From NCBI GenBank assembly GCA_022703485.1, contig JAKLDO010000002.1:1-64000 (forward strand): a stretch of 64,000 nt of DNA, read 5' to 3'. A program made the translations under genes and the position numbers. This DNA comes from a bacterium (GTDB lineage Bacteria; UBP6; UBA1177). Positions 47,391-64,000 of the stretch are shown one piece after another. The notes under the pieces were generated by a model that saw only the letters and a program-made list of their open reading frames with translations, was not told the origin of the DNA and searched no databases. How positions within the stretch are numbered: position 1 is the stretch's first letter; each line of letters begins with the position of its first letter.

Positions 47391-49876
47391 TCCTCCACCT
47401 TGCCGCCGTCAATTATTGTCCAGTTGAAATCATTTATTATCTTAGCTCTCGCCGCTTCTGCCGCTGAACTGTATTTAGAGTTCCCCCCATGAAAATCAAC
47501 ATCGTTCTGTAAAACAAGTCCGCTCCAGCCGTTAAGGATCGCATCGTAGTTTGCGGTGGAGAGGGTTATCTTGTCAAACATTGAGGTCATATCTATTACA
47601 CTCGATACATCCCAGTCCGAAAGATTCTGATCGAATGCTCCGGCATTTGCAAACATCTCTTGCATATACAGCACTTTCGAAACATTCCACTTTGAAATAT
47701 TCTTGTTGAATTTATATGCATGGAAGAACATTCTTGACATATCGGTCACTTTTGATACATCCCAGCCGGAAACATCCTGATTGAATTCAACAGCCGCACC
47801 GAACATTTCACTCATATTAGTTACATTGGAAACATTCCAGCCGGAAATATCTTTATCAAACTTCGAAGCCCCGTAAAACATACTTTCCGCAGAAGTCAGG
47901 TTTGACACATTCCATCCTGAAATATCACTATTGAACGGCGTGTTAAGGAACATACCGGATGTTTGTATAACATTGGAGACATCCCATTTGGACAGATCTC
48001 CGTCAAATGAACTGAAGGCGAACATGTACCACATATTTCTTACATTAGAAACATCCCAGTTTGAAATATCACCTTTAAAAGATTCTGCAGCATAGAACAT
48101 GAATTTCATGTCCGCGACTTTTGAAACATTCCATTTCGAGATGTCCTGATTAAATGAAACCGCTGAGTTGAACATTCCATTCATATATACCACATTAGAA
48201 ACATTCCAATCGGAAATTTTACCATTGAACACTGTTGCAGAGTAAAACATGTTTTCCATGTTTTTTATACCTGAAACATCCCATTCATTGAAATGTTCGT
48301 TCGCCTTAAGGTTCTCACAGCTGTTAAAAGCATTTTTGAGACTTGTTGTACCGTCGAGATCAGGAACATCTACAGCTTTTATGTCAAGGTTCATGCAATT
48401 CATGAACTGGCTTTCTGTGCTTCCGAAAGAAAACCCTCCCCACTGCCCTATCTCAAGCAGTTTTTGTGAATCACCGCAATCAAGTCCTTCAGAAATATCT
48501 TCTAAATTACAAAATTGCCAGCCCGATATAGTTCCTTCAATCACCACAACATATTTTCCTTCCTGTTTATAAGTATGATCCGCTTCAATGCTGTCCCACT
48601 TAGTTACTCTGCCTGAGGTTCCGTCACCCCAGTCTACAGTAAAATCGTATTTTCCGTTTTCAACAAGAGGAAGCCTTATAGTGTGATTATCCGGAGCTTC
48701 ATTGTAAGTTGTACTCCATTTTGAAACAAAACTATCAGGCAGAGCACACCCTCCGTTTATACATTTTCTGTTTTCCTGACACCCGTTATCCGAATTGCAC
48801 GGACCGAAATCTCCGCTTACTCTGGTCACACAAATGACACCGGCCATATCAGGTTTATAATTCCCGGTGATCTCGTCATTTGTAAAATCAACAGTTAATG
48901 CATAGAAATCATAATAAAGCAGGTCTGTCGTGGAAGACCAGTATCTCCCGCCTTGATTAAACGGAAAATCAGCAGCAGAATCATCTTTTTCTGAAAAATT
49001 CATCAGCGTCTGAAGTTCATTGATGTTCGGCAGTCTCCATGCTGACCTTCCGCCATAATTTAAACTTTTGCAGACATTCAGAGCTTCACCCCATGACATC
49101 TCAGAAAAAACTTTTAAAGCCCACACGAGACCTGTTGACCGGTCTATTGCAACTTTGTCATTTTTTTTCTCTTCAACTTTAAAAACATTACCGGGCAGTT
49201 TTGCATTTCTCACACAACGCACAAAATTAATGCCGTGCTTATACCGTAACCCGGTGATACCGTATTTAAAATCTATTACCAGCCCTATCGTTTTATCAGA
49301 AGCATACTCTGTTGATGTCCAGAATATATCTTCGGGACAATATGGAAACACATCAACATTTATAGCCGGCGGAACTTCGACTCCGTGATCTACAATACTC
49401 CACAACTCATCATAGTCCGGAAGTCTCCAATCACCGTATCCGGCATATTCAAGACCTTGGCAGTATATGTCCGCATCACTCCATGAATAGCCTGTGGTAG
49501 AAATATTCCTCTGCCACTGAAGACCTGTCGCATTATCAATAACAACATCTCCTGCAAGAGAAGTCTCCACCTTATAGCTTCGCGCTATACATTTTTCCTC
49601 CATAGCATACTGACCATCGGTTCCATAAAAATCTTCATTGAATTCCGGGCATTTGATCTCATCTTCACTGTCATAACATTTTTTCTGTCCGGTACACACA
49701 ACACCTGAAAGTTCTAAGATCTCTTCGTCAGAAATTTCCTCTGTATCATTGTCGCCCGCTCCGCCGGAATCATCAGAATCAGCTGCTGCATCATCACCGT
49801 CAGCAGAAGGTCTTTCAAGCTTCTCAAGACTGCATGAAATAGAAAAAATAAATACAAACAAGATAAAGTATTTCAT
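47387..49876 (-). CDS. DUF1566-DUF285 lipoprotein, third gene of the array
   Basis: The 829 residues have lipobox SISC (Cys near residue 15), an acidic linker, a short VVCTGQKKCYDSEDEIKCP segment, and two DUF1566 domains (GYGDWRLPDYDELWSI near residue 150 and GRSAWRLPNINELQTLM near residue 280). A Cys-rich knot and a PKD-like domain (YDFTVDWGDGTSGRVTKW near residue 430) come next, then about ten DUF285 repeats. The cap (STANYDAILNGWS, SSAAEAARAKIINDF) is nearly identical to that of the fourth gene. The start lies in the upstream stop (TAATG). The last codons (GGTGGAGGAA) supply the ribosome site for the next gene. Probable surface adhesin. Confidence 0.93.
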   Translation of the reverse strand: MKYFILFVFIFSISCSLEKLERPSADGDDAAADSDDSGGAGDNDTEEISDEEILELSGVVCTGQKKCYDSEDEIKCPEFNEDFYGTDGQYAMEEKCIARSYKVETSLAGDVVIDNATGLQWQRNISTTGYSWSDADIYCQGLEYAGYGDWRLPDYDELWSIVDHGVEVPPAINVDVFPYCPEDIFWTSTEYASDKTIGLVIDFKYGITGLRYKHGINFVRCVRNAKLPGNVFKVEEKKNDKVAIDRSTGLVWALKVFSEMSWGEALNVCKSLNYGGRSAWRLPNINELQTLMNFSEKDDSAADFPFNQGGRYWSSTTDLLYYDFYALTVDFTNDEITGNYKPDMAGVICVTRVSGDFGPCNSDNGCQENRKCINGGCALPDSFVSKWSTTYNEAPDNHTIRLPLVENGKYDFTVDWGDGTSGRVTKWDSIEADHTYKQEGKYVVVIEGTISGWQFCNLEDISEGLDCGDSQKLLEIGQWGGFSFGSTESQFMNCMNLDIKAVDVPDLDGTTSLKNAFNSCENLKANEHFNEWDVSGIKNMENMFYSATVFNGKISDWNVSNVVYMNGMFNSAVSFNQDISKWNVSKVADMKFMFYAAESFKGDISNWDVSNVRNMWYMFAFSSFDGDLSKWDVSNVIQTSGMFLNTPFNSDISGWNVSNLTSAESMFYGASKFDKDISGWNVSNVTNMSEMFGAAVEFNQDVSGWDVSKVTDMSRMFFHAYKFNKNISKWNVSKVLYMQEMFANAGAFDQNLSDWDVSSVIDMTSMFDKITLSTANYDAILNGWSGLVLQNDVDFHGGNSKYSSAAEAARAKIINDFNWTIIDGGKVEE

Positions 49877-52509
49877 TATTCTTTCCCGCCGTCAGTTATT
49901 GTCCAGTTGAAATCATTTATTATCTTAGCTCTAGCCGCTTCAGCAGCAGTACTGTATTTTGAATTTCCGCCGTCAAATTTGACACTTTTGCAGAGAGACT
50001 GTTCACTCCAGCTATTAAGAATAGCATCGTAGTTAGCGGTGGAAAGAGTCACACCATGGAACATGTATTCCATGTCGTATACTGATGACACCTGCCATGC
50101 CGAAAGGTCCTGATCGAAAGAAACGGCACCGTTAAACATCTCCTCCATGCTCCCTACACTTGAAACATCCCAGCTTGAAATGTCCTGATTGAATGATACT
50201 GCATTGTGAAACATAACTATCATTTCATAAACTTTCGAGACATCCCACCCTGATATGTCCTGATTGAACGATTCAGCACCACTGAACATCCCTGTCATGC
50301 TGGTCACATTTGAAACATTCCACTTAGAAATATCCTGATTGAATGATTTTGCTCCGCCGAACATCCCGACCATGTCTTTGACACCCGAGACATCCCACCC
50401 TGATATATCCTGATCAAAAGACTCTGCACCGCTAAACATTGCTCTCATTTCAGTGACATTTGACACATCCCATTGCGATATATCCTGATTAAATGCCAAA
50501 GCATTGTCAAACATAAAGTTCATATAGTCCACCTTTGAAACATTCCAGCCCGAGATGTCACCGTTAAATGACTCGGCAGAATCGAACATTTCACTCATGT
50601 CGATCACATTGGAAACGTCCCATTTTGAAAGATCCTGATTAAAAGAAACGGCGAATCCGAACATGCCGTTTAAAAGAGTCGTATTCATGACATTCCAGGT
50701 TGTTATATCCCCGTTGAACGACTCAGCCCCATCGAACATGTATGACATCTGCAATACTTTAGAAACATCCCATCCTGAAAGGTCCTGATCAAACAATTTG
50801 GCATTTTGAAACATTCCATTCATATAGTTTATATTGGACACATCCCATTTGTTGAAAGAATCTGTACCGATTAGTTCAGCACAGTCCATAAAAGTATTAT
50901 ACAGGTCCGATGTTTTAGTCAGATCCGGTGTGTCTGCTGCTGAAATATCAAGATTGGAACATCCTCTGAACTGGCTGTCAGTGCTGCCGAAAGCCATATT
51001 CCCCCACTGGTATATTTCAATTATTTTCAGTGCATCACTTAAAGCGCACTCTCCCTCCCAGGCTTTAAATATACAGAACTGCCAGCCGGAAAGAACTCCA
51101 TCTATAATAACAAGGTATGTTCCCTCTGAATCGTATGTGTGAAGTGCTGTTTCGTCATCCCAGCTTGTAATTTTATCACTCGTTCCGTCACCCCAGAAAA
51201 CAGTGAAATCATATTCTCCATCCTCGACTAAAGGCAGTTTGATCTGCCTTGAAAAAGTCAGTCCTTCATTATCTGTTTTCCATTTTGAAATAAAAAGTCC
51301 GTTCTGATAACAAAGGTCATCAACACAACTATAACCTTCCGGGCATTCATCATCAGAAGCACATTCGGCATCATCATTGCGGCATTGTCCTTTAACACAG
51401 AACTCTCCTTCCGGACATCCGTTATTTTCAGAACATTCATTTTCATCAGAAACGATCTCCTCATTCACGACACAAAGCACAGGATGGAGGTCCTGTTTCT
51501 GTTCACCGGCGATCTCACCTGTCTGAAAATTAACTGTAAATCCATAAAAAAGATAATACAGCGCATTGGTCGTAGATGACCATACTTTCTCCTGCGGCAT
51601 GTCAGGGAACAAGGATGCAGCACCGTCTTTTGAAGGATCTATAAGTGATTGCAGCTCATTGATGTTCGGAAGTCTCCAGTCAGCTCTTCCTCCGTAATTA
51701 AGATCCTTGCAGAAAACCAAAGCGTCCTTCCATTTTTTCTGCTGTGCCGGGGTCCCCGTCCACAAAAGACCTGTTGAGGAATCTGCTATCAACTTATCAC
51801 CCTTGACCGTTTTTTCAGAAAAACCGTTATCAGGCATTCCGGGGTTTCTGACACATCTTACATAATACGAACCGTTTTTGAGCCTGAATCCGGTTCCTCC
51901 ATATTGAAAATCGGTAAAGAACACCAGCTTATCGTCAGAGACATATTCAGAAGATGTCCAGAAAATGTCGGCAGGAGTATCAGGAAAAACATCCTCATCG
52001 ACAGCAGGAGACATCCTTCTGCCAAGGTCCACAATAGTCCAGAGTTCATCCATACCCGGAAGCCGCCAGTCACTGTGTCCGCCGAGATCAAGACTTTTGC
52101 ACAGATCTAGCGCATCAGCCCAGAAATATTTTTCTTTAAAACTATGTCTCTGCCATTCGAGTCCTGTATTTCTGTCGATCACTGTTTCCTGTCCGGATTT
52201 GCTTATTATTTCGAAATCTTTTATTAAACAGAACCCTTCCGGAGCGAACTGGCCGTCAGTTCCGTAATAAACACTATCTGAAGACGGGCAGATTATTTCT
52301 TCATTGCTGTCATAGCATTTGGTCTGTCCCGTGCATAAAACACCGTCAATATCAGATACACCGGCATCACTGTCGCCGCTTTCATCCACATGTCCGTCAT
52401 TAACAGCTGTGTCTTCATCGCTTTCCGCATCTGTTCCAGATCTTGGAAATTTTTCGAGACTGCACGATGTGATTAAAAAAATTGCGATCAGGATCAAATA
52501 CTTCATCAT
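49876..52509 (-). CDS. DUF1566-DUF285 lipoprotein, second gene of the array
   Basis: The 877 residues have lipobox ITSC (Cys near residue 16), an acidic linker, VLCTGQTKCYDSNEEIICP, and two DUF1566 domains (GHSDWRLPGMDELWTI, GRADWRLPNINELQSLI). Two Cys knots (CSENNGCPEGEFC, CASDDECPEGYSC) and a PKD-like domain (YDFTVFWGDGTSDKITSW) precede about eleven DUF285 repeats and the shared cap. Two ATG codons in tandem begin the gene; the first overlaps the stop of the gene upstream by 4 bases. One repeat unit shares almost identical DNA with the fourth gene (see findings), which suggests exchange of repeats between genes. Confidence 0.93.
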   Translation of the reverse strand: MMKYLILIAIFLITSCSLEKFPRSGTDAESDEDTAVNDGHVDESGDSDAGVSDIDGVLCTGQTKCYDSNEEIICPSSDSVYYGTDGQFAPEGFCLIKDFEIISKSGQETVIDRNTGLEWQRHSFKEKYFWADALDLCKSLDLGGHSDWRLPGMDELWTIVDLGRRMSPAVDEDVFPDTPADIFWTSSEYVSDDKLVFFTDFQYGGTGFRLKNGSYYVRCVRNPGMPDNGFSEKTVKGDKLIADSSTGLLWTGTPAQQKKWKDALVFCKDLNYGGRADWRLPNINELQSLIDPSKDGAASLFPDMPQEKVWSSTTNALYYLFYGFTVNFQTGEIAGEQKQDLHPVLCVVNEEIVSDENECSENNGCPEGEFCVKGQCRNDDAECASDDECPEGYSCVDDLCYQNGLFISKWKTDNEGLTFSRQIKLPLVEDGEYDFTVFWGDGTSDKITSWDDETALHTYDSEGTYLVIIDGVLSGWQFCIFKAWEGECALSDALKIIEIYQWGNMAFGSTDSQFRGCSNLDISAADTPDLTKTSDLYNTFMDCAELIGTDSFNKWDVSNINYMNGMFQNAKLFDQDLSGWDVSKVLQMSYMFDGAESFNGDITTWNVMNTTLLNGMFGFAVSFNQDLSKWDVSNVIDMSEMFDSAESFNGDISGWNVSKVDYMNFMFDNALAFNQDISQWDVSNVTEMRAMFSGAESFDQDISGWDVSGVKDMVGMFGGAKSFNQDISKWNVSNVTSMTGMFSGAESFNQDISGWDVSKVYEMIVMFHNAVSFNQDISSWDVSSVGSMEEMFNGAVSFDQDLSAWQVSSVYDMEYMFHGVTLSTANYDAILNSWSEQSLCKSVKFDGGNSKYSTAAEAARAKIINDFNWTITDGGKE

Positions 52510-54968
52510 TCTTTTCCGCCGTCAGTTATTATCCATTTAAAGTCATTTACCAGCACAGACCTCCCTGTTTCACCCGAAGAACTGTATTTAGATTTTCCGC
52601 CATTAAAAGACCTGCCGCTTTTCAGGGGAAGTTTTGACCAGCCGTTAAGTAACGCATCATAATTTTCAGTTGAAAGAGTACCGTTTTTGATGAAATTATT
52701 GAAAGAAGTGACATTTGCAACATTCCATTTCGAAAGATCCTGATCAAAAGACACTGCCTCTTCAAACATGAAATCCATATTCAACACATTTGATACATTC
52801 CACTCTGTCACATCACCGTTAAAAGAAGCTGCTTCATAGAACATATTGCTCATCTCAGTAACTGAAGAAACATCCCATTCTGAAAGGTCCTGGTTGAAAG
52901 ACACGGCATTTTCAAACATATAAGACATATTAATGACATTTGACACATCCCAGCCCGAGATGTCCTGATCGAAAGAAAAAGCATGGGAAAACATTTTATA
53001 CATATGTGTTGCACTTGAAACATTCCAGCTGGAGATATCCTGATCAAAAGATGCTGCGCCGTTAAACGCCCAGCTGAAATTTGTCACCTTTGACACATCC
53101 CAAACTGAAATATCCTGATTAAAATCAGAGGCTCCGTTAAAGATCCAGCCCATATCTGTCACTTTTGAGACATCCCATTTTGAAATGTCCTGATCGAAAC
53201 ATCCTGCATTGTTGAAAAGATGTCGCATGTTTGTGACACCGGAAACATCCCAGTTATTAAAAGACGGACCTCCTTTAAGGTTATAGCAATTCCAGAATGC
53301 AGCCTTAAGACTGGATGTTTTGCTCAGATCAGGAACATCGTCAGCCTTCACATCAAGATTGGAACATCCGGCGAACTGGGACTCTGTTTCTCCCATTACA
53401 AGGCCTCCCCATTGATCTATTGTCATGAGCTTATTGGAATCGTTTTTATTATTACATTTAAGTTCATACGGATCAAACTTACAAAACGACCACCCTTCCA
53501 ATTTCCCTTCTATAGCAACAGTATATGTCCCCTGGACTTCGTATCTATGTAATGCATCAGGATCACTCCATGATTTTATAACACTGCTTGTTTTATCCCC
53601 CCAGAAAACAGTGAAATCATAAGTCCCGTTCTCTACAAGAGGCAATTTAATCTCATTTTTCTGAGAAACTCCGGGAAATACGGTCTGCCATCTTGAAACA
53701 AAAAGACCGGAAGAGAAACAACGCCCGTTATAGCATGAGCTGCCGTCGGCGCATTTATTATCAGAAGCGCATGCTTCCTCATCTTTATAACAGTACATGT
53801 CTACGCAGAACTCCCCTTCGGGACATCCTTTGTCGTCTGAGCATATATCTTTTTCTTTAGCGGTATCTCCGGTAACGCACAAAAATCTTTTTTCTTCTGT
53901 CTTCTTTTCACCCGTTATTCCACCATTTTTGAAATCAACAGTCAAAGCATAAAAAGCATAATAAAAAGAGTCCGTTGTGGATGACCAGAATCTTTCTGAA
54001 GGAATATCCTTTAATACTGACGCCGGCTGATCATCAACCATGCTTATCAGGGTATGAAGCTCATTTATGTTAGGCAGTCTCCAGTCCGATCTTCCTCCAT
54101 AGTTCAGCTTTTTACAGTATTCCAGCGCCCTTTCCCATGTTTTCCCCGCAACAAACTGCCTGTTCCACACAAGATGAGACAGAGGATCGATCACAATTGC
54201 ATTCTCTTTTACGGTTTTCTCATCAAATTCTTTCAAAGGCAGTTCATCTCCTCTCACACATCTGGCGGAATATTCCCCATACTTGTAACGGAGTCCGGAC
54301 CCTCCATACATGAAATCTACAAAAGCGCCAAGCGTTTTATCTGAAATATTTTCCGATGAGGTCCAGAAAACTTCAGGAGGTGTATTCAGAAAGTAACTGG
54401 GGTGTATGGCCGGAGGATTTTCATTTCCGAAACTGACTATCGTGCGCATTTCCCTGAGATCTGGAAGCCTCCAGTCGTCATAACCGCCATATTCAAGACT
54501 GTCGCAATAATTTATTGCGGCTGACCAGGTGTGCTTCTCATCAGAAAGAGTCCTCTGCCAGATCAGAGCAGTGTTCCTGTCAATTACTATCTTGCCCGAA
54601 CCTGTGTCCTTTACAGTCATATCCTGTTCCAGACACTTAGATTCGATGACATTCTGAAAGTCGTTGCCGTAATATATGCTCTCTGTTCCGGGGCACACAG
54701 TTTCTTCATCATTATTATAGCATTTCTGCTGCCCGGTACACAGAACTCCTTCGACATATATCAGATCATAATCAGGACTTTCTACCGTATCATCTTCATC
54801 ATTTATATCAATATCAAAGGTATCGGCAGTATCGTAGTCTGCAGTGTCGTTTTCAGATATTTCTTTATCTGATACGGACTGTTCTTCATCTGCATCAGTT
54901 CTTTCAAACTTTTCAAGACTGCATGAAACAGAAAAAATGAAGATGGCGATGATGAACAGTTTCTTCAT
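52506..54968 (-). CDS. DUF1566-DUF285 lipoprotein, first gene of the array
   Basis: The 820 residues have lipobox SVSC (Cys near residue 16), an acidic linker rich in DT/DE units, VLCTGQQKCYNNDEETVCP, two DUF1566 domains (GYDDWRLPDLREMRTIV, GRSDWRLPNINELHTLI), two Cys knots, a PKD-like domain (YDFTVFWGDKTSSVIKSW) and about eight DUF285 repeats. The C-terminal cap (STENYDALLNGWS) is clearly more diverged than that of the other three. This is the promoter-proximal gene of the set, with its own predicted promoter at 55005-55033. Location at the cell surface is inferred from the lipid anchor and adhesin-like repeats. Confidence 0.93.
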   Translation of the reverse strand: MKKLFIIAIFIFSVSCSLEKFERTDADEEQSVSDKEISENDTADYDTADTFDIDINDEDDTVESPDYDLIYVEGVLCTGQQKCYNNDEETVCPGTESIYYGNDFQNVIESKCLEQDMTVKDTGSGKIVIDRNTALIWQRTLSDEKHTWSAAINYCDSLEYGGYDDWRLPDLREMRTIVSFGNENPPAIHPSYFLNTPPEVFWTSSENISDKTLGAFVDFMYGGSGLRYKYGEYSARCVRGDELPLKEFDEKTVKENAIVIDPLSHLVWNRQFVAGKTWERALEYCKKLNYGGRSDWRLPNINELHTLISMVDDQPASVLKDIPSERFWSSTTDSFYYAFYALTVDFKNGGITGEKKTEEKRFLCVTGDTAKEKDICSDDKGCPEGEFCVDMYCYKDEEACASDNKCADGSSCYNGRCFSSGLFVSRWQTVFPGVSQKNEIKLPLVENGTYDFTVFWGDKTSSVIKSWSDPDALHRYEVQGTYTVAIEGKLEGWSFCKFDPYELKCNNKNDSNKLMTIDQWGGLVMGETESQFAGCSNLDVKADDVPDLSKTSSLKAAFWNCYNLKGGPSFNNWDVSGVTNMRHLFNNAGCFDQDISKWDVSKVTDMGWIFNGASDFNQDISVWDVSKVTNFSWAFNGAASFDQDISSWNVSSATHMYKMFSHAFSFDQDISGWDVSNVINMSYMFENAVSFNQDLSEWDVSSVTEMSNMFYEAASFNGDVTEWNVSNVLNMDFMFEEAVSFDQDLSKWNVANVTSFNNFIKNGTLSTENYDALLNGWSKLPLKSGRSFNGGKSKYSSSGETGRSVLVNDFKWIITDGGKE

Positions 54969-55038: not shown

Positions 55039-55815
55039 TTAAAGTCCGATCACATTACAACCGCATCCACTGTCATTCGAACCGGCAGTATCTACGACAG
55101 AGATATCGTCTGTATCGGTTTCGAGATCATTTCCGTAAGCTGAATCTTCATCTGAATTGCTGTTGTCAGCTGTCTGGGATTCATCAGACGACTGATCTTC
55201 GTCACCGGTCTGATCATCATTTACAGCGATTTCGTCAATGACAGTCCCGTCATCTGTTGTATCTTCATCAATAAATATTTCATCAATGTCTATGATATCT
55301 TCATCGGCTTCACCTTCAAACAGGTCTTCATCAACGGGATCCTCATCCGCAACATTTTCGTCAGCCGCATCTTCATCAATAATGTCTTCGTCAACAATAT
55401 CTTCATCAATAATGTCCTCATCAGTGCAAACACCGAGATCACAAGGCTGAGTCAAAGCCGGCATCGAAGGAGAATCACAGTACGATTCACTTACAACTTC
55501 CGAAGTTTCAACTTTTGTGCAAGTTACGCTTCTTGACTGGAAACCCGGACCGCACATTTCAGAGCATTCGCCCCACTCTCCCGCCACCCATTCATAAGTG
55601 CAAGGAGGACTGCACGGCTGACTAGTCGCAGGTTTGGGTTTCGCATCACAGAGAGAATCGGGGGCAACATCGCCGGTAACAGGGTTTTTGCAATATACTT
55701 TTCTCACCTGAACACCGTCACATACGGCAGAACATTCCTTCCATGGACCCGCAACCCAGTCTCCATAAACAGAAACAGTAAGAAACAGCACCGATGCAAA
55801 TACCAGAAACTTCAT
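55039..55815 (-). CDS. Secreted thrombospondin type 1 repeat protein with acidic repeat tail
   Basis: The 258 residues have a signal peptide (residues 1-18, ending VYGDW). Two thrombospondin type 1 domains follow (WKECSAVCDGVQVRKVYC and WGECSEMCGPGFQSRSVTC), each with W-x-x-C, the Cys pattern and a closing PCSPPC or PCDLGVC. Then comes an acidic tract of about 100 residues built of DEDIIDEDIVDE-type units, and the C-terminus GCGCNVIGL. TSP1 domains are mainly animal and protist modules binding glycans or proteins; bacterial examples are few. There is no lipobox, so anchoring, if any, must use the C-terminal motif. It is transcribed from the divergent palindromic region toward the DUF285 array. 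Confidence 0.87.
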   Translation of the reverse strand: MKFLVFASVLFLTVSVYGDWVAGPWKECSAVCDGVQVRKVYCKNPVTGDVAPDSLCDAKPKPATSQPCSPPCTYEWVAGEWGECSEMCGPGFQSRSVTCTKVETSEVVSESYCDSPSMPALTQPCDLGVCTDEDIIDEDIVDEDIIDEDAADENVADEDPVDEDLFEGEADEDIIDIDEIFIDEDTTDDGTVIDEIAVNDDQTGDEDQSSDESQTADNSNSDEDSAYGNDLETDTDDISVVDTAGSNDSGCGCNVIGL

Positions 55816-56024: not shown

Positions 56025-57101
56025 ATGAAAAAGATCATTTTTGCTGTCTTTAGCGTCCTGCTCATGGCGGCATGTTCAAACACGACAAATTCATCCAATG
56101 ACGGAAACACGCTTCCTGACACTGATGAGATAAATGATGAACAGTCAGATTTGTCAAATGACGAAGCCGCCGACAACACGCCCGATGAGGACTTGTCCGA
56201 CGAAGTTTTAACGGAGTCGGATGAGACTGCTGACGAGACTACGGATGAAATAACCGATGAAGAAATTCCCGATGATCCCGGTGCAATAGATCGCGGTGAG
56301 CCAGTTCACGGAAGAGTCATTCTTCAGAGCTATCCGGAAAGTGATAAAAATTCAGCATGGATATCTGCGAACTTTTATGACAAACCGATGAGGCTTGACG
56401 CTTTCAGTCCTTTCCAGCCTTCGATCCAGAAGCTTGGACTTAAAAAAGGCGCCTGCTCGATATTTATCGCCGATATCAATGCCGCATGCAACCCGCAGTG
56501 CGGAAATGATGAATTCTGCAATGCCGAGTCAAAATGCGAAAAGTTCTCGGTCTCCCAGTCAGCAGGAAAGATAACCGTATCGGACACCGATGCTGAAGTA
56601 TCAATGGACTACAGTCCCGATGAATGGTTCCCCGGATATTACCAGACGGAGTTCCCCGCAGACGGACTTTATTCTCAGGCTGTCATAACCGCAAGTGCCG
56701 CAGGTGAAACCCTCCCCGCCTTCACAATGTCGGTCAAAGCTCCAAAATATTCAGACATCACCGTCGGGGACAACGGGACAGTGAATCTGTATGACGATAA
56801 GAACACGGAGATAAAATGGACTCCCGACGGAAATGATAATGCAGAAATGCTTCTGATCATAAATTTCGGATGGCACGGAGCTCCTCCTGAAGCGACAATA
56901 ATCTGCTCTGCTAAGGACTCTGCCGGAAAGATCGTGATCGACAAGGATATATCTGTACTTGCTCCTCTTGCCGGAGGTCCATCACTTTTTCCGCACGGGT
57001 CATATTTATTTAAAATGACATCTGTTAGAAAGGTGATAGATGGAAAGAACATCGAGCTGTGGGCGGCGTTCGTCTATGGCGCAAACCCGGTCCACGAGTA
57101 G
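56025..57101 (+). CDS. Acidic-linker lipoprotein, first of a paralogous pair
   Basis: The ATG at 56025 is used, since it gives a standard lipoprotein signal ending MAAC (Cys near residue 17); GGAGA lies upstream. A strongly acidic linker (residues 30-85, DETADETTDE type) precedes a folded part of about 260 residues. The folded part contains GACSIFIADINAACNPQC, CNAESKC, NFGWHGAPPEATIICSA and PLFPHGSY-like segments, all matched in the next gene. Six Cys in the central part suggest disulfides. I do not recognise the domain. It is the first gene of the six-gene operon, with TATAAT at 55906 and a leader of roughly 100 bases. Confidence 0.87.
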   Translation: MKKIIFAVFSVLLMAACSNTTNSSNDGNTLPDTDEINDEQSDLSNDEAADNTPDEDLSDEVLTESDETADETTDEITDEEIPDDPGAIDRGEPVHGRVILQSYPESDKNSAWISANFYDKPMRLDAFSPFQPSIQKLGLKKGACSIFIADINAACNPQCGNDEFCNAESKCEKFSVSQSAGKITVSDTDAEVSMDYSPDEWFPGYYQTEFPADGLYSQAVITASAAGETLPAFTMSVKAPKYSDITVGDNGTVNLYDDKNTEIKWTPDGNDNAEMLLIINFGWHGAPPEATIICSAKDSAGKIVIDKDISVLAPLAGGPSLFPHGSYLFKMTSVRKVIDGKNIELWAAFVYGANPVHE

Positions 57102-57110
57102 GAGGGAGCA

Positions 57111-58130
57111 ATGAAAAACATAATACTGACAGCGGTCTTCGTTTCGATATTCATCATATCGTGCGCAAATTCCACTAACAAGGTACAGGGAGGCGACGAT
57201 CAGGTCCAGCCTGATGAAACAGCTGATGAAACAGCTGACGACATCTCCGACGATCTATCCGACGACATCTCCGACGAAATTTTAACTGATCCTGACGAAC
57301 CGGTGAGCGATGATGACACCTTTATCGGCGGACTTGATCTGGGAGAGCCTGTCGCAGGACAGATCTCGATACTTGCAAACGGCTATGACGGAGCGGCAAG
57401 TTCAGGATATGTCACCGCGGCATTTTATGATTCACCGGTCCATTTCGATGCTTTCTCGACCTATCCCGACCTTCACTCCGAAAAAGCAAAGACCGGGAAA
57501 TGCGCGATCTACATAGCTGAGAACGCCGCATGCAACCCGGCATGTGATTTCGATGAATACTGCTCAAAGGATTCAAAATGTGTCAAATCTCCTGCGATGG
57601 TGGGGGCCGGAGCCATCACGATAAGCGCCAACGGACAGTCATTATTCCTGAGTTTTGATGAATATTTCGGTTATTTCTCTGAAAACAACATAGCCGGAAT
57701 GAACAGTGAACCTGACATCACAGTGCAGGTTGACGGCGATATGGTCGAAAAATTCACGACTGTGATACCGACTCCGCCTCTGGTGCTTCTCAACATAAGC
57801 AATTTTGAGATCGCTCTGCATGATGATGAAGATACCGTGATAACATGGGAGCAGTCCGGGAACGACGGCGAAATTATATACATCGTTCTGAATTTCGGAT
57901 GGCACGGAGCTCCTCCTGAAGCTGTGATACTGTGCGCCGCCCCTGATGCCGACGGATCTCTGACAATTTCAAAAGAGATATCGAAACTTGCGCCCCTCAA
58001 CGGAGGAGCCGGACTTGAACCTCACGGATCGTATGCCATGAGAATAAACAGATCTGTCGTCAATTCCAATTACGGAAAGATACTGATAAGGTCAGGCTTC
58101 AACTTCTATGTGAATGTCAGACATGAATAA
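57111..58130 (+). CDS. Acidic-linker lipoprotein, second of a paralogous pair
   Basis: The 339 residues have lipobox IISC (Cys near residue 19), an acidic linker (DETADETADDISDD type) and a folded domain like that of the preceding protein: GKCAIYIAENAACNPAC, CSKDSKC, NFGWHGAPPEAVILCAA and LEPHGSYAMRI. The pair arose by duplication, and conservation is strongest around GWHGAPPEA, which may mark a functional surface. GGAGGGAG precedes the ATG, 9 bases after the first gene. The end overlaps the dikinase-like gene by 8 bases (ATGAATAA), so its translation is coupled to that protein. Function unknown; a partner of the dikinase-like lipoprotein is plausible. Confidence 0.87.
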   Translation: MKNIILTAVFVSIFIISCANSTNKVQGGDDQVQPDETADETADDISDDLSDDISDEILTDPDEPVSDDDTFIGGLDLGEPVAGQISILANGYDGAASSGYVTAAFYDSPVHFDAFSTYPDLHSEKAKTGKCAIYIAENAACNPACDFDEYCSKDSKCVKSPAMVGAGAITISANGQSLFLSFDEYFGYFSENNIAGMNSEPDITVQVDGDMVEKFTTVIPTPPLVLLNISNFEIALHDDEDTVITWEQSGNDGEIIYIVLNFGWHGAPPEAVILCAAPDADGSLTISKEISKLAPLNGGAGLEPHGSYAMRINRSVVNSNYGKILIRSGFNFYVNVRHE

Positions 58131-60057
58131 GATATACTTTTTTATACTTGTGATCGTCGTTCTTTCCTGTTCAAATGACAGAAAAGATGCGGACTTCACC
58201 TGTCTGTGGCTTGAAGATTCAAGACCTGAGGAGCTTGCGCAGCTCGGATGTCCTGACGATCACGCTGCACTTGCAGGAGATCCTCCCTCTTCCGCACTTC
58301 CAGCCAACAAAAGCACTTTGTTCTTAATTGAGAGGAACAAGGAAAATAAGATCCATTTCTTCGACTCTCAGAAATGGCGTCATTTCTCTTTTGCGACTGA
58401 AAAGCTTGAAGGTTATCCCGACCTTTCGGCATTCAATTCAGAAATGTACTACAGCCAGAAAAGAAGGCTTTATCTGGGCACCGTGACCCGCTTCCTCTCT
58501 TCTGAGATCTATGCTCTTGAGATAGCGCCTATTGATAAAGCGAGCCCTGAAATGATCGAAGAGACATATAACCTTGTGAAAAAAGCGATCAAATGGAACG
58601 CCGATCTCCGTTACCACCCGACCTCGAACGCTCTTGAAATGGAGTCACGGCTTCCAAAGAATGTGCCGATCGTATATACGAAAGAACTTTATGACGGGGC
58701 TGAGTTCCAGGGGCTGAATCTGGGAAGAACGATAGGAAAGATCGTTTTCATAGACCTTGAAAACCTCGACAGCACCTATATTTCAAGGACAGATATCGTT
58801 GTTCTTGATAGAGTTCCCAACGACATTTCAGCCTGTGCCGGAATAATAACGGCCGAATTTCAGACTCCCCTTTCACATGTAAATCTGCTCAGCATCAACC
58901 GCGGAACTCCCAACATGGCCTACACAAAAGCTCTTGAGGATGAGTCCATAAAAACGCTTGAGGGGAAATGGGCCGAACTTACCGTAAATGCAGACGGGTT
59001 CACGATAAAGGCATCCACAAAAGAGGAAGGTGAAACTTTCTGGGAATCGCTCAGACCGCCTGAAGTGCAGAGACCTGAAATAGATCTGACGGTCAAAGAG
59101 ATAATAAATGTTGATGATATCGGCATTGATTCAATACCTTATGCAGGCGGCAAGGCGGCTCATTATGCAGAGCTTAGAAAGCTGAAAGATACTATTCCTG
59201 TCGAAAAGGCCTTTGTTGTGCCTATATCTTTCTATGATGATTTCATAAGAAGTAACGGAATAGATGCTAAGATCTCGGCAATGCTCAAGGATGAAAAGTT
59301 CCAGAATGACGGTCTTTACAGGAAAGCGGCACTTGCAGAGCTTCGTGATCTGATAAAAAATTCCGCTCTTGATGCAGCTGCTGAAAAAAAGATCGCTGAT
59401 GTCATTGCGGCGGAATATGCTGCCGACCAGCCTGTGCGGTTCCGTTCAAGTTCAAATGCCGAGGACCTTGAATCGTTCAACGGTGCAGGACTTTACGAAT
59501 CGAAAAGCTATAAGCCCGGAGATCCTCAGAAAACGATAGCCAATACCGTGAAAGAGGTCTGGGCAAGCCTATGGTCGCAAGCCGCATTTGAAGAAAGGGA
59601 ATGGGCGAAAGTCGATCATTCGTATTGCGGAATGGCTTTACTTTTCCACAGAAGCTATCCCGATGAAGTAGAAAAGGCGAACGGTGTCGCGATAACTGCA
59701 AATCCTTTCGATCCTCCGCCCGGAGGACAGGCTGCTTATTATGTGAATGTCCAGAAAGGCGCGATCTCTGTAGCAAACCCTGAACCCGGCATTACACCTG
59801 ATTCGTTCCTTTACTACAAACCGCCTGCAGGTCAGGGTGAGATGACATATCTTTCCTTTTCGAGCGAAACAGGCGGCGCAACTGTGATGGAATTCGATGA
59901 GATAGTGACGCTCGTCAAAGCGCTTTACACGCTTCACAACCATTTCCATAAAATATACAGAAGTGAACCTTTCGGAATGGATGTGGAATTTAAACTTATC
60001 GATGATGACAGGAAGCTCGTCATAAAGCAGGCGAGACCTTATCCTTTCAAGAATTAA
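58123..60057 (+). CDS. Lipoprotein with phosphohistidine-swivel and PEP/pyruvate dikinase nucleotide-binding domains
   Basis: The ATG at 58123 gives 644 residues with lipobox VLSC (Cys near residue 15). An N-terminal part of about 170 residues of unknown type is followed by a swivel domain (about 190-285). Its TPLSHVNLLSINRGTPN carries the His that is phosphorylated in PEP synthases and glucan water dikinases. The PPDK N-terminal ATP-binding domain follows (about 345-640), with GGKAAHYAELR, FRSSSNAEDLESFNGAGLYES, WASLWSQAAFEER and GVAITANPF; the Arg and Glu-Asp of the nucleotide site are present. The swivel precedes the ATP domain, the reverse of PEP synthase, and no PEP/pyruvate-binding barrel is present. 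An enzyme of this kind behind a lipid anchor is unexpected, because ATP is scarce outside the cytoplasm. Substrate unknown. Confidence 0.88.
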   Translation: MNKIYFFILVIVVLSCSNDRKDADFTCLWLEDSRPEELAQLGCPDDHAALAGDPPSSALPANKSTLFLIERNKENKIHFFDSQKWRHFSFATEKLEGYPDLSAFNSEMYYSQKRRLYLGTVTRFLSSEIYALEIAPIDKASPEMIEETYNLVKKAIKWNADLRYHPTSNALEMESRLPKNVPIVYTKELYDGAEFQGLNLGRTIGKIVFIDLENLDSTYISRTDIVVLDRVPNDISACAGIITAEFQTPLSHVNLLSINRGTPNMAYTKALEDESIKTLEGKWAELTVNADGFTIKASTKEEGETFWESLRPPEVQRPEIDLTVKEIINVDDIGIDSIPYAGGKAAHYAELRKLKDTIPVEKAFVVPISFYDDFIRSNGIDAKISAMLKDEKFQNDGLYRKAALAELRDLIKNSALDAAAEKKIADVIAAEYAADQPVRFRSSSNAEDLESFNGAGLYESKSYKPGDPQKTIANTVKEVWASLWSQAAFEEREWAKVDHSYCGMALLFHRSYPDEVEKANGVAITANPFDPPPGGQAAYYVNVQKGAISVANPEPGITPDSFLYYKPPAGQGEMTYLSFSSETGGATVMEFDEIVTLVKALYTLHNHFHKIYRSEPFGMDVEFKLIDDDRKLVIKQARPYPFKN

Positions 60058-60078
60058 CAACTGTAATAAAGGTTTAAG

Positions 60079-62004
60079 ATGAACAACAGGATCCAGGGTG
60101 CAGGACTTATCTTCACCGCTTTGGCGGTACTTATCGCAGTTCTCATTGTGATCGGGATGTATTCAAGTTCAGATGCCACGCAGTTCCAGGGTATCGCAGA
60201 TTCCACTGAGACCGTGATAAATTCCGAAAGTTCGGTCGAGATACAGAAGATACTTGTCATGGAAGGGCAGAAAGTGAATGCGGGTGAAAAGCTCGCCGAG
60301 CTTACGAACCCTGAACTTTCGCTCAGGATATCGGACATAAACAATCAGCTTCTTCAGCTCGTTTCTGAGAAAGGGATGGGAAAGGCTGAGATAAGATCCA
60401 AACTGATACAGGTCAGAGCGGCACAGCAGGCGGCGGTCAACGATCTCAATTCACAGATAAGGTCGCTTGAGAACCAGCTGAAGATAAACATGGAGCTTTC
60501 AAGCGGTCTGAAAAGCATAGAGATCAATAAAAATCAGGGCGACCTCAAAAACCCGATAAGGCTTCAGATAGAGTCGCTGAAACAGGAGATCGAGGATAGA
60601 AAAAAGGAATTCGGGGCTTCAGCGCAGATGTACCTCGATATGCTTGCAAACTCGGACGCACCGGTAAAGATCCAGATGGAAAGGCTTAAAGAAGAGCTTG
60701 AAATGCTCACCGAGAAAAGTCAGAACCTCGCAGTTTTCGCACCTTTTGAAGGCATAATCGGCAGTGTATTTTTCAAAGGAGGAGAAAAGATAGCTCCGTT
60801 CACTCCGATACTTTCGATAAATAAAAAAGAGCCTTCCATCGTCAAAGGCTACATTCACGAATCGCTTTATTCCAAAATAGCGGCAGGCGACCCTGTGACG
60901 GTCATTTCAATAGACGGTAAAAAGAAGGTTAAGGGTGAAGTTGCAGGACTTGGCAACAGGATCGTCCCCTACCCTGTGAGACTTCTCAAGATCGCTACAT
61001 TTCAGCTCTGGGGCCGCGAGATAACTGTAAAGATCCCTGAATCGAACGGACTGATCCTCGGCGAAAAAGTGACAATAGTATTTGAAGAGAACCCTGTAGG
61101 CGGAATATTCTCAAAGCTTCTCTCTTTACTTGCTCCTGACAAACTTAGTGCAAAGGAAAAGACCGGCACTGACACAGTTGAAATAAAATGGGACGGATCT
61201 GTAAAAATAGAGGCTTCAGGCGCAGTCTATCTTGAAAAAGAGAACCTTTTTGCGATCGTATCGGATGAAACGGAAAAGAAAAGCCCTGTCATCTATCTCA
61301 CAGCTTTGGACGGAACCGTTAAAAAGGCCGCAGTAATTTCAGGTCTTGATAAGATCGATGATGTGGAATCTATCTGCAAAGCGGGAGATGACGAGTTCAT
61401 CGTTGCATCATCGCTAAGCCGCAATAAAAAGGGAAAGCTCAGGGAAAACCGCCAAACGGCGGCGATGATAAAAATGGAGAACGGCGAGTTTAGACTGACA
61501 GCAAGGGCGGATCTTTACGCCATGCTTGAAAAATTCGCCGCATCAGCTGATAGCGGACTTGCATCATTTATCAAAAAAGGGATGTCAGAAGGGACCCTTG
61601 ATATCGAAGGGATATCTGCTGAAGGTAACGACCTTCTTATCTCTTTCAAAGATCCGCTTTTCAATGACAGGCCTCTCATAATGAAAATAAGCGGTTTTCG
61701 CGCAATGTTCGATTCACAGAAAATCGATCCTGCAGTTGCGTCCCACTTCACAGTAGAAGGAATTCCCGCAAATGAAAGGATCTCCGACATACTGCACAGA
61801 GAAGGCGTCATCCATTTCACAGCTTCATGCAGTTCAGGCAAATGCGGAGGATTTTACAGATATGAAAAAGGAAAAGCCGTACTTATAAAGCACTTTGACG
61901 GCCTGAAACCTGAAGGTATGGCTTTTAACGCTTCCGGTTCTTTTTTCATATTCTTTGATGAAGGCGGCAAAGGAAATTCAAGGTTCACGGAGATAAAAAA
62001 ATGA
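60079..62004 (+). CDS. HlyD-like membrane protein fused to a DUF3616-like propeller domain
   Basis: The 641 residues begin with a membrane helix (about residues 9-28). A lipoyl/barrel-sandwich half with VMEGQKVNAGEKLAELTNPE, a long coiled coil (about 75-210) and the second half with FAPFEGIIGSVFFKGGEKI follow, the classic layout of HlyD/AcrA-type adaptor proteins. A beta-barrel region follows near residues 250-340. The C-terminal 270 residues are a different, propeller-like domain (AVYLEKENLFAIVSDETE, DDVESICKAGDDEFIVASS) that resembles DUF3616. Adaptors usually stop after the beta-barrel, so this fusion is unusual. The stop overlaps the TolC-like gene (ATGA). An ABC or RND inner-membrane pump is not in the window. 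Confidence 0.86.
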   Translation: MNNRIQGAGLIFTALAVLIAVLIVIGMYSSSDATQFQGIADSTETVINSESSVEIQKILVMEGQKVNAGEKLAELTNPELSLRISDINNQLLQLVSEKGMGKAEIRSKLIQVRAAQQAAVNDLNSQIRSLENQLKINMELSSGLKSIEINKNQGDLKNPIRLQIESLKQEIEDRKKEFGASAQMYLDMLANSDAPVKIQMERLKEELEMLTEKSQNLAVFAPFEGIIGSVFFKGGEKIAPFTPILSINKKEPSIVKGYIHESLYSKIAAGDPVTVISIDGKKKVKGEVAGLGNRIVPYPVRLLKIATFQLWGREITVKIPESNGLILGEKVTIVFEENPVGGIFSKLLSLLAPDKLSAKEKTGTDTVEIKWDGSVKIEASGAVYLEKENLFAIVSDETEKKSPVIYLTALDGTVKKAAVISGLDKIDDVESICKAGDDEFIVASSLSRNKKGKLRENRQTAAMIKMENGEFRLTARADLYAMLEKFAASADSGLASFIKKGMSEGTLDIEGISAEGNDLLISFKDPLFNDRPLIMKISGFRAMFDSQKIDPAVASHFTVEGIPANERISDILHREGVIHFTASCSSGKCGGFYRYEKGKAVLIKHFDGLKPEGMAFNASGSFFIFFDEGGKGNSRFTEIKK

Positions 62005-63242
62005 TAAAAAGGACCCTTTTCATCGCACTCTGCACATTTCTCTGGACCGTTCTTTGCGGAAAAGACCTGACGATCGCAGAATACATAAAAAAGACGGGCG
62101 ATGATCCGAGACTGAAAGGCAAGTTAGAGATGAGCGGCACTTTCGGCGGATCCAAGAACACTCCTCTTCTGAAGGGTGTAGAGTTCAGGACAGAAACGAA
62201 GAACTTTGACATAATGCAGCAGAAATACGCATTCAGGTTCTATTTCAAGGGACTGGGCGAGACAAAGTCATCCAATGCAGTGCTTCAGAACTACAAAGAC
62301 CTTTATGCGGCAGAATACAAGATAGATATGATAGACATTCTGCTTGAACGATATACTTTGGTCCTTGAAAACATCGAGATAAAGAAGAACATCGAACTTC
62401 TTGATTCACTTACCGCGGTGCTTGAGGACAAAGTGGCCGTGCTTCGCAAAATGAGCTCCATTTCGCAGGACACCAGTCTTACGGAGATCGTGGATGCCGA
62501 AGAGAAGATAACAGACATCGAGCTTGAGAAGATAGAGCTTGAGAACAGGGCCAACTCAATTGAACTGATGGTCATGGAGCAGACCGGCGGCGACTCCAAG
62601 CCCGCATTTCATAACGAAAAGCTGATAACCATTGATGATATTGAGAAAAAGATACTTGTCATGGAAAAGGCGGAACATGAGCCTGATGTCCTTGTTGAGT
62701 ACAGGAAACAGAGAGTGGAGCTCGCTGAGAGCGAACTGCAGATGGAAAAGGCGAAGACCTATGACTTTTTCAATTACTTCTCCCTTGACTATGACACTGA
62801 TGAATGGGAAACCCCGAGGAATTCGTTCTCTATCGGTCTTGCAGTGAACATTCCGGGGATCAAGAACGATCAGGTGGACATTTCAAGGAAAAAAGCCGAT
62901 CTTATCGAAGAGAAGATGAAATGCGAAACAGAGAGCAGTGAAAATGAAAAGAGCATAAAGAACAACATCCGCTCGATAAAAAGGCAGATAAAACAGTACC
63001 GTGTCCTTCTTGAGAAGAACCGTGACAGCGAAGCATCGACCTCACTTGCAAAATATTCCGCGATGGAAGGAGCCGACCCGCTTACAATACTTAAGATCAA
63101 GGAGAGGATCATAAAGAACGAAATGAAGATGCAGTCGATACTTTTCAGGATCTACATAAGATACATCACTCTGCTGAATCTGACAGGCGTTATTCCTGAA
63201 AACCCTGATGAGAACCATCTTCTGGGGAGTTCTGCCAAATGA
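62001..63242 (+). CDS. TolC-like outer-membrane factor
   Basis: The 413 residues start with a signal peptide (ending VLCGK) and contain two long alpha-helical hairpins with heptad character (about residues 115-200 and 225-390). Between them short strand-rich segments such as RTETKNFDIMQQKYAFRFYF and NSFSIGLAVNIPG near residue 275 have the amphipathic pattern and GL-x-x-NIP-type motif seen in TolC-family strands. Length agrees with the family. It is coupled both to the HlyD-like gene upstream and the VTC gene downstream by ATGA overlaps. Together with the HlyD-like protein it would form a periplasm-spanning duct, but the energising pump is not seen here. Confidence 0.85.
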   Translation: MIKRTLFIALCTFLWTVLCGKDLTIAEYIKKTGDDPRLKGKLEMSGTFGGSKNTPLLKGVEFRTETKNFDIMQQKYAFRFYFKGLGETKSSNAVLQNYKDLYAAEYKIDMIDILLERYTLVLENIEIKKNIELLDSLTAVLEDKVAVLRKMSSISQDTSLTEIVDAEEKITDIELEKIELENRANSIELMVMEQTGGDSKPAFHNEKLITIDDIEKKILVMEKAEHEPDVLVEYRKQRVELAESELQMEKAKTYDFFNYFSLDYDTDEWETPRNSFSIGLAVNIPGIKNDQVDISRKKADLIEEKMKCETESSENEKSIKNNIRSIKRQIKQYRVLLEKNRDSEASTSLAKYSAMEGADPLTILKIKERIIKNEMKMQSILFRIYIRYITLLNLTGVIPENPDENHLLGSSAK

Positions 63243-64000
63243 CAAAGACGGTTCAGGTTGAAATACCGCAGGTCCTCGAAAGGTATGAACTGAAATATCA
63301 TATCCCTTTCGAGCTTGTCGAGCCGATATCGCAATTTGTGAAGCCTTACTGTTCTCTTGATGAGTACTCGGAAAGAGAGACTAACGGTTTCTACATGATA
63401 AACAACCTTTATCTCGATTCACCTTTCTACACTTTCCTCAACAACAGGCTTGAAGGGGCTGAAAAAAGGTTTAACATGCGGATAAGGAGTTACGGAGCAG
63501 ACCCTGTTCCGCCCTACTTTTTTGAAATAAAGTACAAGACCGGCGACATTATCAGGAAATTCAGGGTTAAATGCAAAAAAGGTGATGCGCAGGAGATGCT
63601 CAACTGTCCTGATGTTGTAGAAAAGTACGGTCTTAAAGAGAAAGAGGCCCGCAACATGGAGCTTTTCCAGAGACTTGCGATACAGTACGGCATTGAACCG
63701 AAAGTGTTCACGCAGTACATCAGAAAAGCATGGATCAGCGATATCGACGACTATGCAAGGGTCACTTTCGATGTTGATATGAAATGCATGGAAGCGGAAG
63801 GTTTCACATTTAAACCCGATCCTTTAAAAATGGAGCCTTACGACAATGAGACCATTTTCCAGCCGGGGTGCAATACCATACTTGAACTTAAATGCTATAC
63901 TTCGAGCGTTCCGCTGTGGATGCTCGATCTTATAAGGGAATTCGATCTCAGGCGGAGCAGTTTTTCAAAGTATTCGAACGGAGCGCTGAAGGTGCTCAGA
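63239..64000 (+). CDS. VTC-domain protein (polyphosphate polymerase type), 5' part
   Basis: The gene starts at ATG 63239, overlapping the TolC-like stop (ATGA), and runs off the right edge after 254 codons without a stop. The visible part is a VTC domain: ERYELKYHI near residue 14, INNLYLDSPF near residue 54, MRIRSYG near residue 80, FEIKYKTGDIIRKFRVK near residue 95, YIRKAWISD, VTFDVDM near residue 178, ILELKCYT near residue 216 and RRSSFSKYSNGALK at the end. Its basic residues (K and R in the strands) and Glu of ELK correspond to the polyphosphate-synthesising tunnel of yeast Vtc4. Bacterial VTC proteins often neighbour CotH kinases and DUF4956 membrane proteins; these would be expected beyond the edge. 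No signal peptide is seen, so it is probably cytoplasmic. Confidence 0.93.
   Translation, partial: MTKTVQVEIPQVLERYELKYHIPFELVEPISQFVKPYCSLDEYSERETNGFYMINNLYLDSPFYTFLNNRLEGAEKRFNMRIRSYGADPVPPYFFEIKYKTGDIIRKFRVKCKKGDAQEMLNCPDVVEKYGLKEKEARNMELFQRLAIQYGIEPKVFTQYIRKAWISDIDDYARVTFDVDMKCMEAEGFTFKPDPLKMEPYDNETIFQPGCNTILELKCYTSSVPLWMLDLIREFDLRRSSFSKYSNGALKVLR

Follow-up and report, generated by a model that had tools for sequence, protein, structure and literature searches.

Six tightly coupled genes on the plus strand, at positions 56025-64000 of the 64,000-nucleotide stretch analysed here (the window), bring together a lipid-anchored dikinase-like protein, HlyD- and TolC-type export proteins and a VTC polyphosphate-type enzyme, which raises the question of what such a set might do together. 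The preliminary description of this locus suggested that the operon may make, modify or export a phosphorylated polymer, or phosphorylate surface components. Its account of the layout is borne out by the ORF coordinates, and the spacing that it gave (gaps of 9 and 21 bases; overlaps of 8, 4 and 4 bases) is correct to the base. The whole contig is 89,552 bases long and the window edge cuts the VTC gene; once the DUF4956 and LTD lipoprotein genes on the rest of the contig are counted, the operon has eight genes, and an opposite-strand gene adjoins that of the LTD lipoprotein. Rightward extension had been proposed for DUF4956, CotH and an inner-membrane pump, and of these only DUF4956 is present; the operon encodes no ABC, MFS or RND pump. 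The features are as follows.

56025..57101, plus strand: lipoprotein 1 (earliest in-frame start 56013)
57111..58130, plus strand: lipoprotein 2 (from the ORF)
58123..60057, plus strand: lipid-anchored dikinase-like (PPDK-like) phosphotransferase (earliest start 58114)
58168..58170, plus strand: lipobox cysteine (VLSC) of the dikinase-like protein, from its sequence
58876..58878, plus strand: predicted phosphohistidine within QTPLSHVN (residue 255 when 58114 is taken as the start; conserved as His in 49/49 homologues)
59443..59466, plus strand: ATP-site motif RSSSNAED of the dikinase-like protein, from homologue conservation
60025..60039, plus strand: ATP/Mg motif KQARP of the dikinase-like protein, from homologue conservation
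60079..62004, plus strand: HlyD-type periplasmic adaptor with a C-terminal beta-propeller fusion
61192..61971, plus strand: Phytase-like/DUF3616-type propeller domain of the HlyD fusion
62001..63242, plus strand: divergent TolC-like outer-membrane factor (homologues in the same position match OEP)
63239..64000 in the window, plus strand, stop at contig base 64045: VTC (polyphosphate polymerase-type) enzyme
Contig 64055-64741, beyond the window: DUF4956, directly after VTC in the operon
Contig 64742-65221, beyond the window: LTD (lamin-tail) lipoprotein, last gene of the operon

The neighbouring block to the left lies on the minus strand and holds large tandem lipoprotein genes and the gene of a thrombospondin-repeat-like protein, so that transcription probably begins within the 209 bases that separate this block from position 56025. 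Four consecutive large ORFs of this block (45117-54968, minus strand; 757, 829, 877 and 820 amino acids, overlapping by 1-4 bases) resemble a tandemly expanded surface-protein operon, and the two whose sequences were read completely are lipoproteins and paralogues of each other, with, by eye, DUF1566-like and BspA/DUF285-like repeats. The exported protein at 55039-55815 (minus strand) has two thrombospondin type-1-like repeats and then a long Asp/Glu-rich tail, and to the right of the operon (L002:9953-16539) lie type I restriction-modification-like genes, with large restriction and specificity subunits, both likewise judged by eye.

The dikinase-like protein matches PPDK_N in Pfam (1.3e-26) and consists of an N-terminal domain, a swivel phosphohistidine domain and a C-terminal ATP-grasp domain, the same order as in glucan water dikinase. 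It had been stated that an ATP site broken in all homologues would speak against the earlier proposal; instead, the ATP-site and phosphohistidine residues are kept across 49 homologues, with H255, K347, R444, S446, E450, D451, Q639 and R641 in all 49 and E625 in 48, and with the PPDK_N domain and the RSSxNxED and Q-x-R motifs in 49/49, which rules out degenerate catalytic residues. The family is predicted to be exported and often lipid-anchored, since 66/80 homologues have a signal-peptide-like N-terminus or a lipobox by a crude heuristic. In an AlphaFold2 model (pLDDT 85) the ATP domain matches rifampin phosphotransferase, its best fold match, and PEP synthase, and the NCBIfam PEP_synth profile gives 89 of 740 bits, in the ATP domain only, below the equivalog level and without the TIM barrel that binds PEP. 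GWD1_pHisD matches 11/49 homologues (best E 2.6e-4) and not the window protein itself, and a Pfam carbohydrate-binding module is found in 0/49. The protein shares the swivel phosphohistidine and ATP-grasp domains, with their conserved residues, with the glucan water dikinase, PEP synthase and rifampin phosphotransferase superfamily, but differs in its predicted export, usually with a lipid anchor, and in its N-terminal domain. The window genome encodes two such dikinase-like lipoproteins (contigs C112 and C166), each with an adjoining lipoprotein; the pair on C166 (L049:6931-10105), a small lipoprotein and a PPDK-like gene with a run of N inside it, is without VTC.

Lipoproteins 1 and 2 are paralogues, 37% identical. 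Lipoprotein 1 has an acidic linker and a domain with four conserved cysteines (CNPQCGNDEFCNAESKC), an invariant tryptophan and a His-Gly, and its homologues are close to the PPDK-like gene in 16/80 loci. Together the two lipoproteins represent a new family, marked by these Cys, Trp and His-Gly positions, whose members turn up repeatedly in the vicinity of PPDK-like genes.

Whether these genes belong together can be judged from relatives near and far, and the two give different answers. VTC is carried by 15 same-family genomes, the window genome included, and in the same-family loci (those of 14 genomes, window included) HlyD (plus propeller), TolC-like, VTC and DUF4956 form a kept unit; the PPDK-like gene is present in none of the same-family relatives, and both lipoproteins are likewise absent. 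The next gene after this core is mostly that of a membrane protein of about 300-320 residues, and CotH in one relative (G005). The former is a multi-helix protein encoded directly after DUF4956 (L058:11062-11973 and equivalents in 12 same-family loci); it has no Pfam or NCBIfam match and is missing from the window locus, where LTD is in its place. Upstream of the core several relatives have, by eye, a gingipain-type (C25) peptidase-like lipoprotein (L051:6472-8241 and equivalents). Within the family, then, the conserved unit does not include the PPDK-like gene or the lipoproteins that go with it, and these make up an exchangeable peripheral part.

This absence raised the possibility that the PPDK-like gene adjoins the core by chance, which is ruled out by its recurrent linkage in a genome-wide scan. 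The scan of GTDB genomes gave 255 relatives of the PPDK-like protein, and the neighbourhoods of 80 were taken, mostly from Myxococcota, with Verrucomicrobia, Planctomycetes and others. Six-frame profile searches found VTC, DUF4956, HlyD, propeller, TolC-like, CotH and LTD around many of them, and VTC is near the PPDK-like gene at 10/45 loci against 0.1 expected (loci with measured genomes). Among 141 Myxococcota drawn evenly, with a PPDK-like cut-off of E <= 1e-100, the two genes also co-occur by genome (36/8/30/67, P = 2e-8, uncorrected for phylogeny). Along the tree of the PPDK-like proteins, linkage to the core was gained or lost 13 times or more, with some false negatives from truncated contigs, and so this is not one inherited arrangement. 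Five loci (L147, L089, L104, L106 and L237) hold the PPDK-like gene with core genes including HlyD, and the fullest parallel, L147, reads VTC-DUF4956-HlyD-propeller-TolC-like-PPDK-LTD/CotH-LTD/CotH. Related gene sets thus recur in many unrelated bacteria. Genes not kept together in relatives had been named as a ground for refuting the preliminary description, and across relatives as a whole this is not what is seen. The functional association proposed there holds as a recurring one, both in the same-family core and in distant linkage, whereas the PPDK-like gene and the lipoproteins fall outside what the family keeps together; the gene system is well supported and its biochemistry is what we infer.

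CotH is found in 9/15 same-family relatives searched and is absent both at the window locus and in the assembled window genome, about 95% complete. This fits a replacement of CotH by the dikinase-like lipoprotein as extracytoplasmic phosphotransferase, in one genome of about 95% completeness.

The HlyD fusion matches HlyD_3 in Pfam at 1.7e-8, and its propeller matches PF13449 (0.0099) and DUF3616 (0.062) below threshold; the homologous propeller in L106 matches PF13449 at 2.4e-11, and we dropped the name DUF3616 in favour of a broader Phytase-like group. In L062 a propeller is a separate gene adjoining VTC-DUF4956. The window TolC-like protein has no Pfam match of its own, and homologues in the equivalent gene position match PF02321 (OEP) at 1e-15 to 1e-22. 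Adjacent adaptor and outer-membrane factor genes are as in HlyD-TolC tripartite exporters, but here there is no ABC, MFS or RND pump, a propeller is fused to the adaptor, and DUF4956 appears to be the membrane partner.

The VTC part within the window matches PF09359 at 6.7e-42. Its invariant residues are identical across 19 divergent loci, and the columns align to yeast Vtc4p, which the profile matches end to end (8.8e-26) at the invariant positions; these we take to be the residues lining the Vtc4p tunnel, so that the VTC fold is present with its basic tunnel and metal-binding Glu conserved. By sequence, the active site matches that of Vtc4p, and the enzyme is predicted to make polyphosphate. 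SPX and DUF202 were not found in the 268-residue protein (Pfam, on the first 253 residues, gives VTC only; NCBIfam, on the whole, nothing). The system thus has in common with the eukaryotic VTC complex (yeast Vtc4p, PDB 3g3q) the catalytic domain, its active-site residues and presumably membrane-coupled synthesis, but differs in lacking SPX and DUF202 domains and in having DUF4956 as membrane partner. Neither the window genome nor any of five relatives has PPK1, the only PPK type that this search covered. DUF4956 has five predicted helices and an ACT-like domain and is MgtC-like; PDB fold matches, examined for a functional name, consisted chiefly of ACT domains, including the C-terminal domain of MgtC. 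In 71/72 loci that have both genes, VTC is no more than 5 kb from DUF4956. A divergent Myxococcota VTC subgroup (L200-L208, L102) has no detectable DUF4956 or HlyD neighbour.

The distribution of the export parts follows the type of envelope. With Omp85 examined in 26 genomes, and Myxococcota and the remaining relatives taken as diderm, HlyD is nearby in 36/56 outer-membrane loci and 0/16 monoderm loci (Fisher P = 3.6e-6; 1.4e-4 without the window's family), and an outer-membrane factor in 29/56 and 0/16 respectively, whereas the monoderm loci keep VTC-DUF4956 in 16/16 and CotH in 9/16. A rule that HlyD is in every outer-membrane locus fails, as 20/56 have none nearby. That HlyD-TolC parts are found only where an outer membrane must be crossed is the main argument for export of something.

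Part of the gene set has been described before. CotH, the polyphosphate polymerase (VTC) and DUF4956 are accessory genes of Gram-positive Pel operons, as in S. intermedius SIR_1592-1594 (PMC7112168, PMC12345266), and the triad was published with no function or mechanism (PMC7112168, PMC2879425, PMC12345266). It shares with our loci VTC adjoining DUF4956 (membrane segments and ACT domain) and a secreted phosphotransferase, but is tied to Pel and has no HlyD, propeller, outer-membrane factor or dikinase-like lipoprotein; the window locus has the VTC-DUF4956 pair, with CotH replaced by the dikinase-like and LTD lipoproteins. The Pel authors did not find the triad genes together outside Pel loci (PMC7112168, PMC12345266); we find VTC-DUF4956, with or without CotH, in numerous further genomes, diderm ones included, in a search that did not cover Pel genes. 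C. perfringens NELoc-2 also has VTC with CotH, with no function given (PMC2879425); it is Gram-positive and lacks the export parts, and the 'tubulin/FtsZ' genes beside its VTC may be DUF4956, by their length and place. The earlier statement that no such system had been described thus fails for VTC-DUF4956-CotH (PMC7112168, PMC12345266) and VTC-CotH (PMC2879425) and stands for the form with HlyD, propeller, TolC-like and dikinase-like proteins. Neither the form extended by HlyD, propeller and TolC-like proteins, nor the secreted dikinase-like lipoproteins and their link to VTC/CotH, nor the diderm/monoderm contrast was found in the searchable open-access literature, and secreted dikinase-like lipoproteins are a little-described family.

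Our preferred reading, to which we give a probability of roughly 0.4, is a system that spans the envelope and serves phosphorylation outside the cell, in which VTC polyphosphate is passed outward to phosphotransferases. VTC would make polyphosphate from ATP in the cytoplasm and send it over the inner membrane, either through DUF4956 or beside it, in the way that yeast Vtc4p delivers its polymer to the vacuole; the HlyD and TolC-like proteins would then bring it to the surface, where it may be deposited or serve as an energy-rich phosphate source for the lipid-anchored phosphotransferase. The dikinase-like enzyme would charge its swivel histidine and pass the phosphate on at the surface, to a polysaccharide in the manner of glucan water dikinase or to a partner protein, for which lipoproteins 1/2 and the LTD lipoprotein are candidates, and in the window genome the two dikinase-like lipoproteins would fill the place that CotH holds in relatives. 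The sequences show which genes are present, their order and linkage, the conserved active-site residues and the predicted export of the phosphotransferase; we infer that polyphosphate is the product, that it passes by way of DUF4956 and HlyD-TolC and acts as donor, and what the target is. A more specific proposal seems to us somewhat unlikely: a new kind of trans-envelope system whose conduit, made of VTC, DUF4956, HlyD-propeller and TolC, supplies exported polyphosphate (or a different VTC product) as phosphate donor to extracellular kinases that do not depend on ATP, CotH kinases and lipid-anchored dikinases being interchangeable as its users.

Several facts count against the preferred reading. 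Dikinases use ATP, and polyphosphate is only a putative donor for such an enzyme; the operon encodes no energised pump, and the fold that DUF4956 resembles, MgtC with an ACT domain, is not known to act as a polymer channel. Many PPDK loci are without a nearby VTC and many PPDK-linked VTC loci without HlyD, and L232 and L236, from an Omp85-positive lineage in the phylum of the monoderm set, have no HlyD nearby. No biochemically tested prokaryotic VTC enzyme was found in the literature searched.

The operon might instead be accessory to a matrix or polysaccharide, with CotH or the dikinase-like lipoprotein phosphorylating glycan or matrix proteins, HlyD/TolC exporting a matrix component and VTC/DUF4956 acting as a cytoplasmic phosphate or nucleotide sensor that controls it, with no polyphosphate export. 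We hold this as a genuine if tentative possibility, in keeping with the occurrence of CotH, VTC and DUF4956 together in the Pel operons of Gram-positive bacteria (PMC7112168), with the ACT-like, sensor-type domain of DUF4956 and with the glucan water dikinase-like domain order. In S. intermedius, deletions of DUF4956 and of CotH altered Pel level and aggregation, whereas VTC deletion had no reported effect on aggregation (PMC12345266), which is the strongest contrary fact to polyphosphate export; the phenotype reads Pel and not polyphosphate and so is not decisive, but on its account the sensor or accessory alternative is a close competitor. Yet we noticed no gene for a glycan synthase next to the window operon, the locus to which this observation applies, and a pure sensor needs no Vtc4p-type active site, of which all residues are kept.

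Two independent modules might also share a transcript, the HlyD-TolC-VTC-DUF4956 core being the real system and the dikinase-lipoprotein set a separate one, given that the same-family core stands without the PPDK-like gene, that the other dikinase-like gene of the window genome, on contig C166, has no VTC beside it, and that GC steps from about 48% over the lipoprotein genes to 44-46% in the later operon genes; however, the core-dikinase linkage recurs far above chance in other phyla, and we think this improbable. Very improbable is inactivation or modification of a small molecule by a periplasmic or surface dikinase-like lipoprotein with HlyD-TolC as an efflux pair. Rifampin phosphotransferase, the best fold match of the ATP domain, inactivates a small molecule, and HlyD and TolC-like proteins are efflux parts, but the inner-membrane pump is missing, no substrate-domain homology extends beyond the ATP domain, and the VTC and CotH partners are left unexplained.

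The gene set joins bacterial VTC enzymes, DUF4956 and non-spore CotH kinases, and its diderm form often comes with an export conduit that is missing from Gram-positive loci. It bears on how extracytoplasmic bacterial enzymes get energy-rich phosphate.
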